This document shows positions 34,066 to 36,529 of a stretch of 64,000 bases of DNA, piece after piece. Both the position numbers and the translations under genes were made by a program. Source of the stretch: a bacterium HR29. GTDB lineage: Bacteria; Chloroflexota; Dehalococcoidia; Tepidiformales; Tepidiformaceae. Where the stretch lies: contig BEIF01000001.1 in assembly GCA_002898215.1 (NCBI GenBank), forward strand, positions 725,501-789,500. The letters run 5' to 3'. A model generated the notes under the pieces. That model did no database searches. It was given only the letters and a program-made list of their open reading frames with translations, and was not told the origin of the DNA. Each line of letters opens with the position of its first letter. Position 1 is the stretch's first letter.

Positions 34066-36339
34066 ATGCGTACGGCGTCTCCAGCAGCCGACTCACCCGC
34101 TGCATCCCCGACCATCGAGGACGTCGTACGCCGCGCGGGCGAGTATCTCCCAGCCGAACGGCTCACGCTTCTCCGCGAGGCGTACGCCTTCGCGGAGCGG
34201 TGTCATGCCGGGCAAACGCGAAGCACCGGCGACCCGTACATCACGCATCCCGTCGCTGTCGCCTACCTTGTCGCCGGGCTGCAGCTCGACCACCACGCCC
34301 TCGCGGCGGCGCTCCTCCACGACGTCCAAGAGGACTGCGGCGTCCGGAACGAGACGCTCCGGGAGAAGTTCGGCCCTGAGGTGGCCCGCCTCGTCGATGG
34401 ACTCACGAAGTTGAACAAGATGGAGCTGCTTGCATCCCCCGAGCAGCTCACCCGCGACGCGGTGCAGGCTCAGAACCTGCGGAAGATGTTCCTCGCCATG
34501 GCCGAGGACATCCGCGTGGTGTTGGTGAAGCTCTGCGACCGCCTCCATAACATGCGCACGCTCTGGGCCCTGCCGCCCGACAAGCAGCAGCGCATCGCCC
34601 GCGAAACACTGGAGATCTTCGCCCCCCTGGCGAGCCGACTGGGCGTGTGGCAGCTCAAGTGGGAGCTCGAAGACCTCGCCTTCCGCTATCTCGAGCCTGC
34701 CAAGTACAAGGAAATCGCCGACCTCCTCGCCTCACGCAGGGCCGCGCGCGAACGGTACATCGAGCGCGCCGTCGCGGTCGTGAAGGAGCACCTCGAACGC
34801 GCTGGAATTCGGGCGGAGGTCACGGGCCGAGCCAAGCACATCTACTCCATCTATCAGAAGATGCAGCGGTACGCGGCCCAATCGAAGACCTTCGACCAGA
34901 TTTACGACCTGCTCGCCCTCCGCATCCTGGTCGAAACGGTGGCCGATTGCTACCACGCGCTCGGGGTCGTGCACAGCATCTGGCGGCCCATTCCGGGTCA
35001 GTTCGACGACTACATCGCCAACCCGAAGGACTCGATGTACCAATCCCTCCACACCACGGTTGTGGCGTTGGACGGGAAGCCCCTCGAGGTGCAGATCCGC
35101 ACCTACGAAATGCATCAGGTCGCGGAGTACGGCGTCGCCGCCCACTGGCGCTATAAGGAAGGCGCACGAACCCAGGGGACGGACGAAGAGCGCATCGCCT
35201 GGTTGCGTCAGCTTCTGGAATGGCAGCGGGAGATGACCGCCGCCGAGGAGTTCGTGGAGTCGGTCAAGACCGACATCTTCCGCGACCAGGTGTTCGTCTA
35301 CACCCCGAAGGGGGACGTCCTCGCCCTCCCGGCAGGGGCGACGCCGCTCGATTTCGCCTACCGCATTCACACCGACCTCGGCCACCAGACCATCGGCGCG
35401 AAGGTGAACGGCCGTATCGTGCCCCTCAACCACCAGCTCCGCACGGGCGACGTCGTCGAGATCATCCGCTCCCGCTCGAGCCGCGGGCCGTCGCGCGACT
35501 GGCTGAACCCCCATTTGGGCTACGTCCGCTCCTCCCACGCGCGCGAGAAGATCCGCCAGTGGTTCCGCCGGCAGGAGCGAGCCGAGAACATCGAGCGCGG
35601 CCGGGAGATGTACGAGAAGGAGATGCGCCGGCTCGGACTCGACCCTGCGGAGCACCAGGAGACCCTCTTGGGGCTCTTCAACATGGCGAGCTGGGAGGAC
35701 TTCCTGGCAGCCATCGGCTACGGCGGGATCAGCACCACCTCCATCGCCCGGCGGCTGGCCGCGCATCTCCAGGTCGACGAGGGGAAAGAGGAATCGGCTC
35801 CTCCCTCGGCCGAGTCGAAGGGAGAGACAGCGCCGCCCCTCGGCGGCCCCGGTGTCCGGGTGCTGGGCGTCGGGAATCTGCTGACGACGATCGCTCGGTG
35901 CTGCAATCCGGTACCGGGGGACCAGATCGTGGGCTACGTCACCCGCTCTCGAGGCGTGACCATCCACCGCGCCGACTGCCTGAACGTCCTCCGCGAGGAG
36001 GAGCGGGAGCGGATCGTCGAGGTGGAGTGGGGCAAGCCGACCCGGCTCTACCCCGTCGATGTCCGCATCGAAGCCTGGGATAGGGTTGGGCTGCTGCGGG
36101 ACATCTCGACCGTGGTGGCCGAAGAGCAGGTCAACATGGTGGGGGTCCGCACCATCGAGAACGGGGACGGCTCGATCCTTATCCTCGCGACCCTCGAGAC
36201 CTCGGGTATCGAGCAGCTCTCGCGGCTGCTTACGAAACTCGAAGTCGTGCGCGGCGTCCGCTCGGTCGAACGGGCGATGGAGCGGCGCCGCACGAAGGCC
36301 GTCGACGGGTCCGGGGCGACCCCTCGGCCTCTCGGCTGA
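34066..36339 (+). CDS. rel: Bifunctional (p)ppGpp synthetase/hydrolase Rel
   Basis: A 757-residue RelA/SpoT homologue. The HD hydrolase domain (about 40-200) has intact HDVQED at 85-90 and the other metal ligands, so hydrolase activity is expected. The synthetase domain (about 230-380) has GRAKHIYSIYQKM and SMYQSLHTTVV. A TGS domain (about 400-465, VFVYTPKGDVLALPAGATPLDFAY), a zinc-finger-type region (ARCCNPVPGDQIVGYVTRSRG) and a C-terminal ACT domain (about 675-745) follow. It is the only Rel in the window and is full length. Its 3' end is overlapped antisense by a small predicted membrane protein gene. Confidence 0.96.
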   Translation: MRTASPAADSPAASPTIEDVVRRAGEYLPAERLTLLREAYAFAERCHAGQTRSTGDPYITHPVAVAYLVAGLQLDHHALAAALLHDVQEDCGVRNETLREKFGPEVARLVDGLTKLNKMELLASPEQLTRDAVQAQNLRKMFLAMAEDIRVVLVKLCDRLHNMRTLWALPPDKQQRIARETLEIFAPLASRLGVWQLKWELEDLAFRYLEPAKYKEIADLLASRRAARERYIERAVAVVKEHLERAGIRAEVTGRAKHIYSIYQKMQRYAAQSKTFDQIYDLLALRILVETVADCYHALGVVHSIWRPIPGQFDDYIANPKDSMYQSLHTTVVALDGKPLEVQIRTYEMHQVAEYGVAAHWRYKEGARTQGTDEERIAWLRQLLEWQREMTAAEEFVESVKTDIFRDQVFVYTPKGDVLALPAGATPLDFAYRIHTDLGHQTIGAKVNGRIVPLNHQLRTGDVVEIIRSRSSRGPSRDWLNPHLGYVRSSHAREKIRQWFRRQERAENIERGREMYEKEMRRLGLDPAEHQETLLGLFNMASWEDFLAAIGYGGISTTSIARRLAAHLQVDEGKEESAPPSAESKGETAPPLGGPGVRVLGVGNLLTTIARCCNPVPGDQIVGYVTRSRGVTIHRADCLNVLREEERERIVEVEWGKPTRLYPVDVRIEAWDRVGLLRDISTVVAEEQVNMVGVRTIENGDGSILILATLETSGIEQLSRLLTKLEVVRGVRSVERAMERRRTKAVDGSGATPRPLG

Positions 36340-36469
36340 GGCGCCGGCGTGCGCTGTCCGAGGGTGGGCCCGCTGGCTCGGTGAGGGCACCCCGCAAGGC
36401 CGCGACTGCCGCATAGACGACGGTGAGGACGAGAACGGCCTGGAGCCCGACGGTCAGCGTAGCATCCAC
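36230..36469 (-). CDS. Small single-helix membrane protein under LexA-like control (predicted)
   Basis: A 79-residue frame beginning at GTG 36469. Residues 4-28 form one strong transmembrane helix (TLTVGLQAVLVLTVVYAAVA), followed by a basic, Pro/Ser/Arg-rich tail antisense to the last 110 bases of rel. No homologue is recognised. The case for a real gene rests on the DNA upstream: a TTGACG/TACAGT promoter with an 18-base spacer and two LexA-like boxes, one inside the spacer and one just before the start. SOS-induced one-helix proteins such as YneA, SidA and DivS inhibit cell division, which is a possible role. No Shine-Dalgarno is visible, and the tail may be shorter or different than predicted. 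Confidence 0.45.
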   Translation of the reverse strand: MDATLTVGLQAVLVLTVVYAAVAALRGALTEPAGPPSDSARRRLSREAEGSPRTRRRPSCGAAPSPVRPSGRRARLRVS

Positions 36470-36473
36470 GATT

Positions 36474-36487
36474 CGCACATCCGTTCG
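36474..36487 (-). promoter_or_regulatory. LexA-like box (proximal)
   Basis: On the minus strand this reads CGAACGGATGTGCG, one half-site mismatch from the Gram-positive SOS box CGAAC-N4-GTTCG. It would lie in the 5' leader of the small membrane protein mRNA, 4 bases before the start codon. Confidence 0.5.
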
Positions 36488-36499
36488 AATGGTGCCGCC

Positions 36500-36529
36500 A
36501 CTGTAGCGAACGGATGTTCTAACCGTCAA
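36500..36529 (-). promoter_or_regulatory. Minus-strand promoter with operator in its spacer
   Basis: On the minus strand, TTGACG (36529-36524) and TACAGT (36505-36500) are spaced by 18 bases. The spacer contains the distal LexA-like box. Transcription would begin near 36493 and run into the small membrane protein. Confidence 0.55.
36507..36520 (+). promoter_or_regulatory. LexA-like box (distal)
   Basis: CGAACGGATGTTCT contains the perfect GAAC-N4-GTTC core of Gram-positive-type SOS boxes and differs from CGAACRNRYGTTYC only at the last base. It fills the spacer of the minus-strand promoter, where a bound repressor would block RNA polymerase. Confidence 0.6.

Follow-up and report, generated by a model that had tools for sequence, protein, structure and literature searches.

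We describe a small gene, very probably under SOS (LexA) control, that codes for a short membrane protein with one predicted helix and lies convergent to rel in the 64,000-nucleotide stretch of DNA analysed here (the window). As judged from its operator and against the copies of Pfam and NCBIfam that were searched, the product is a small membrane protein under SOS control whose sequence family is new. With about even confidence, we regard it as a LexA-repressed gene whose product most likely acts as a temporary division checkpoint. The genome that holds the window comprises 4 contigs with 2,343,573 bases in all, and the features of the locus are collected in Table 1.

Table 1. Features of the small gene, its operator and the neighbouring rel gene, in window coordinates
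Feature	Position	Strand	Remark
Distal LexA box, AGAACATCCGTTCG; box 2 in relatives	36507..36520	minus	inside the -35/-10 spacer
Proximal LexA box, CGAACGGATGTGCG; box 3 in relatives, conserved in 35 of 35 copies	36474..36487	minus	presumed leader
-35 hexamer TTGACG	36524..36529	minus	
-10 hexamer TACAGT	36500..36505	minus	
79-codon frame, small one-helix membrane protein	36230..36469	minus	GTG start at 36469, stop ends at 36230
Predicted membrane helix codons, residues 3-30	36380..36463	minus	hydropathy and AlphaFold2 model, pLDDT above 90
Frame end overlapping the rel 3' end, 110 nt	36230..36339	minus	frame versus rel coordinates
rel (RelA/SpoT homologue), convergent neighbour	34066..36339	plus	gene name from initial annotation and sequence, not family search

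The initial annotation had described two inverted box copies upstream of this frame, and both are exact: CGAACGGATGTGC at 36475-36487 on the minus strand and CGAACGGATGTTC at 36507-36519 on the plus strand, with 11 bp in common and a spacer of 19 bases. These are the only exact matches in the window; when up to two mismatches are allowed, 11 boxes of this type are found versus 4.6 expected, and 2 of 100 shuffled windows reached 11 such matches. The minus-strand promoter, with 18 bases between its hexamers, the distal box within that spacer and the proximal box in the leader, was likewise found as described. A box between the -35 and the -10 is placed fittingly for blocking the promoter, and the layout is kept in relatives. 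The boxes were scored with a matrix made from 19 distinct lexA and recA operator sites of related genomes, the sites of this genome being left out. The distal box scores 20.4 and ranks first of the 63,987 window positions (the next scores 14.7), and the proximal box, at 13.6, ranks fifth. Six of the distinct sites derive from 27 lexA sites, including one (L152, score 5.0) that is probably no real box; the other 13 derive from 25 recA sites that were picked by eye, coding hits and four recA loci with no upstream box having been omitted.

The scan for the same box at lexA and recA that had been proposed as a check gave a positive result at both genes. The lexA gene of this genome carries CGAACATCCGTTCG 15 nt before its ATG, from which the distal box differs in one outer base, and TTGACG-N18-TAGAGT is also present upstream. 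A similar box, CGCACAAATGTTCG, lies upstream of recA, and its one-arm deviation is the same as that of the proximal box read on the plus strand (CGCACATCCGTTCG). Across the whole genome the core GAACNNNNGTTC occurs 49 times, versus 10 for the reversed pattern. Most of these copies fall within predicted genes, so the core alone is weak evidence and its position is what counts. Boxes close upstream were found for lexA, an IMS-family (Y-family) polymerase, a PHP/DNA polymerase III alpha-type gene, a DEAD helicase with an HRQ1 winged helix, ribonucleotide reductase, an RNase_H_2 protein and a small HTH protein, a set with the look expected of an SOS regulon by sequence. Among relatives, 30 loci were fetched for each of lexA and recA. 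A box precedes lexA in 27 of the 30 (38 hits in total), two of the three exceptions being truncated by the end of a contig, and a box precedes recA in 26 of the 30 (33 hits in total).

Several of these boxes deserve mention in their own right. LexA-type boxes stand close upstream of the HRQ1-type helicase and the RNase_H_2 protein (loci L027 2052 and L043 2025), which we take to resemble the repair pair YprA/YprB (MrfA/MrfB) of B. subtilis; mitomycin-type repair may thus be under SOS control in this genome. At another locus (L036 2036 and 3564) two boxes flank the IMS-family polymerase gene and a gene for a 71-residue unknown protein, the second box preceding a DnaE-type polymerase gene, presumably an ImuB/DnaE2-like mutagenesis cassette. 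Intergenic copies of GAACNNNNGTTC (L015 1501, L030 2027 and L047 2027) are followed by three possible further SOS genes: respectively, one for a protein of 208 residues with a hydrophobic stretch at the N-terminus, one for an unknown protein of 130 residues and one for an HTH protein of 102 residues.

The comparison with related genomes covered 38 genomes of the family (Tepidiforma and relatives); the named loci are mostly from Dehalococcoidia, including Tepidiforma flava (NZ_CP115149.1) and two Tepidiforma sp. Synteny downstream of rel located the gene in relatives. A rel match was present in 35 of the 38 genomes and the region after rel was examined at 30 loci. At 26 of these an opposite-strand frame begins just a few bases beyond the core of box 3; the strict pattern accounts for 25 of them, and L062 departs from it by one base. 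With a helix profile that contains the window's own row, the small one-helix gene with the same operator was found in 34 of the 38 genomes, and in all 22 of good quality. Three of the four genomes in which it was not found (G002, G021 and G029) also gave no rel match, and the fourth (G008) has only a 33-residue piece of rel. The copies number 35, since one assembly (G027) holds two diverged copies of the rel end together with the small gene (C24 and C47; L139 and L140), reflecting either a duplication or a mixed bin.

In most relatives the operator is more elaborate than in the window. There, box 1 coincides in part with the -35, box 2 occupies the -35/-10 spacer, and box 3 is in the presumed leader, with the start codon following 4-7 nt after it. 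All three boxes score above 11 in 31 of the 35 copies, and only two boxes are present in the window (G000), G005, G010 and G041. A -35/-10 pair separated by 17-18 bases is found, by a loose pattern, in 33 of the 35. One might suspect that the boxes arose by chance, or that they belong to the tRNA-Asn gene or to an antisense RNA directed at rel, given the 49 genomic copies of GAACNNNNGTTC, mostly inside genes, and a tRNA-Asn start about 118 bases from the distal box. However, every one of the 35 copies has at least two boxes at a near-constant distance from the small start codon, and the boxes are kept by copies that lie away from rel, which makes this explanation extremely improbable. Control of tRNA-Asn by the boxes was discarded on the same grounds of conservation. 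A search of the locus against Rfam gave no match except two tRNAs.

The claim of the initial annotation that the small gene overlaps rel holds for the window, whereas an antisense relation is not essential to it. In 30 of the 34 genomes the coordinates place the gene convergent with rel. In the other four (G001, G003, G044 and G045) gene and operator sit elsewhere, and no box-3 core was found in the fetched loci around rel of these genomes; the overlap with rel is therefore incidental, and antisense control of rel was rejected as the main function. Most of the 25 rel-side copies end within a few bases of the rel stop, not inside rel; the frames of G005 and G006 also enter it, by 62-65 nt. The overlap in the window probably arose when the frame lost the stop that its relatives carry close to that of rel and so ran on.

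The protein is 66-99 residues long across copies and its helix is the conserved part. In structure models the helix is confident, spanning residues 4-32 in T. flava and 3-30 in the window, and confidence in the tail is low. At helix residue 9-11 all 35 copies have D, E or Q. None of the 35 has a K or R in its first 10 residues and all have 7-17 after residue 30; by the positive-inside rule, the tail is thus predicted to be inside. The tail is rich in arginine (26%) and poorly conserved. Of the 35 copies, 29 end in Ala or Ser, although a single genus contributes eight of the Ala-Ser ends, and 22 have Ala as the penultimate residue. The suggested comparison of the frame in related genomes also bore on coding: between close pairs the changes in the helix are mostly silent (five silent and no replacement changes in G007/G026, eight and one in G039/G042), which indicates purifying selection. 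The tail is less constrained, replacement and silent rates being close in several pairs of genus g13.

Outside the family, the profile gave weak matches in 23 of 393 genomes of the class (E 0.0016 to 0.0495); the best of these (G231, L131), the sole one of the 23 inspected, is a longer frame with no box-3 motif. A scan of viral contigs returned no relative. Two one-helix peptides of 33 and 36 residues in G033 and G030 (L126 and L127) match the helix profile weakly, with E values of 2.3e-7 and 2.5e-5, and one of them adjoins a RecT-like phage gene. No LexA box with at most one mismatch was found in either stretch; a related peptide on a prophage is possible.

The window's own copy is the most divergent of the family. 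The frame itself is as initially annotated, with 79 residues and one predicted helix of transmembrane length, its start being chosen to keep the spacing from box 3 seen in relatives. Codon usage is mildly favourable over the 43 codons outside rel (log-odds +6.8) but not over the whole frame (-11.7). The protein is not recognised by a profile of the other 20 rows, ranking no higher than its own shuffles. Averaged over the other 34 copies, its alignment score is reached by 23 of 1000 shuffles, compared with 0 of 300 in the same test for each of four other divergent copies. As sole query it found no credible relative; the best match (G022, E 5e-4) runs through three stops and lies elsewhere than the real copy of that genome. 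A DNA search of 21 genomes with the window region matched its own genome only. The place of this copy in the family therefore rests mainly on location, operator and start spacing: it is convergent to rel, has the operator and starts a few nucleotides after box 3.

One may therefore ask whether the family is real and the window's copy decaying, its operator present and its protein no longer functional. The lack of box 1, the GTG start, the apparent loss of the stop with the 110-nt run into rel and the failure of the independent profile to recognise the protein all point that way. Yet the distal box is the best in the window, the frame is open, a helix is predicted, the polar residue is kept as Gln, and the alignment to G005, the nearest copy tested, is beaten by just 7 of 2000 shuffles. 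We accordingly consider decay a minority possibility, and that the window's copy still makes a working protein is probable. The earlier proposal of an SOS-controlled small protein is thus strongly supported by sequence as regards SOS control, with boxes at lexA and recA and box and gene together across the family. The small one-helix protein is well founded for the family, by purifying selection and the conserved helix, but less firm for this divergent copy.

Box 3 may have a second role. The best Shine-Dalgarno-like stretch before the start is GGATGTG (36476-36482), which lies in the proximal box and pairs with -6.6 kcal/mol. This value, that of the GTGC form of the box, compares with medians of -6.5 for 33 predicted genes of the window and -4.3 for 300 random 22-mers. 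In the nine copies with other forms the pairing reaches only -4.3 to -4.1 kcal/mol; the arm is GTGC in 26 copies, GTAC in 7, GTTC in 1 and GTCC in 1. All 35 copies have GGAT at the centre of box 3; they were first gathered with a pattern that demands a GGAT core, but the protein profile trained on them gave the same 34 genomes. As a suggestion from sequence, then, box 3 may double as a Shine-Dalgarno element, and this would explain the constancy of its centre.

Small membrane proteins induced by the SOS response frequently block a late stage of division, and a new division inhibitor is a plausible identity for the protein described here. The family has the trait common to YneA, SosA, SidA and ChiZ, namely a short protein with one predicted membrane helix, and shares no sequence family with YneA or SosA in Pfam or NCBIfam (26 copies searched). 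SosA of Staphylococcus is similarly SOS-induced, has 77 residues with one helix near the N-terminus, and carries a tail that varies but shows some conservation at its very C-terminal end (PMC6851548). YneA of Bacillus subtilis is an SOS-induced bitopic protein whose helix binds FtsW (PMC13396833); it has an extracellular LysM domain, whereas none was found in our family with Pfam or NCBIfam. SidA of Caulobacter, from another phylum, is an SOS-induced small membrane inhibitor of late division proteins (PMC13396833 and PMC6851548). Against the division reading, the basic tail is predicted on the cytoplasmic side, opposite to that reported for YneA and for SosA, whose tail is extracellular.

With these likenesses in mind, the model we infer is as follows. 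LexA bound to the two boxes (three in most relatives) would cover promoter and leader and silence the gene. Upon DNA damage, RecA would trigger the self-cleavage of LexA, and the small gene would be expressed. The protein would insert by its helix, the Arg-rich tail being probably cytoplasmic, and would bind a membrane component of the machinery for division or for the septal wall, stalling division until repair ends. The leading candidate target would be FtsW; the genome has three genes of the FtsW/RodA/SpoVE family. The common Ala/Ser C-terminus may serve as a handle for a clearing protease. Tepidiforma makes peptidoglycan and Dehalococcoides and relatives are reported to be without it (PMC10284905). 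A septal-wall target would fit, as a correlation, a family seen only in Tepidiforma and relatives. A bolder version, which we think rather unlikely, is a checkpoint family unrelated in sequence to the known ones and of reversed topology, in which the helix engages a septal-wall enzyme, the cytoplasmic Arg-rich tail with its Ala/Ser end works on a partner in the cytoplasm and keeps the protein short-lived, and box 3 is also the ribosome-binding site.

The same features may be read as those of an SOS membrane toxin of the TisB kind, causing depolarisation and hence dormancy, with the rel mRNA, antisense to the gene in most genomes, as a possible RNA antitoxin. Like TisB of Escherichia coli, a LexA-controlled small hydrophobic membrane protein (PMC8145889), the protein has one hydrophobic helix under LexA control by sequence, and the up to three operators suggest that leakage would be harmful; the convergence with rel in most genomes would supply the antisense partner. 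However, TisB has 29 residues, no long basic tail and a dedicated RNA antitoxin, IstR-1; the helix described here has a single acidic or amide residue and is otherwise uncharged in most copies; the rel mRNA cannot be a general antitoxin because the gene lies away from rel in four genomes; and no toxin family was matched in Pfam or NCBIfam. Two overlapping SOS boxes in the ColE1 operon are reportedly linked to cell viability, in a study cited in PMC9517006, so multiple operators would suit a toxin and a strong inhibitor alike. On balance, a toxin of this kind is possible but not favoured. A different task, such as a tether for DNA or repair proteins through the Arg-rich tail, or a change of the envelope, would draw on the disordered, Arg-rich character of that tail, but it is the helix that is conserved and not the tail, and we hold such a task to be improbable.

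The division checkpoint remains our preferred reading. Searches of Pfam-A with 26 copies gave three single-member hits at E 0.1-0.26, none of them credible, and NCBIfam with the same number gave one hit at E 0.08, also not credible; in PHROGs, searched with the window and T. flava copies, one hit at 0.017 is to a protein of unknown function. In the open-access literature we found no study of LexA operators or of SOS-induced small proteins in Dehalococcoidia. What is gained is a predicted regulon with its box, and a protein family undescribed in the copies of Pfam and NCBIfam searched, for which cultured Tepidiforma species exist as test organisms. If true, the model would place a DNA-damage checkpoint in a phylum where we found none described.
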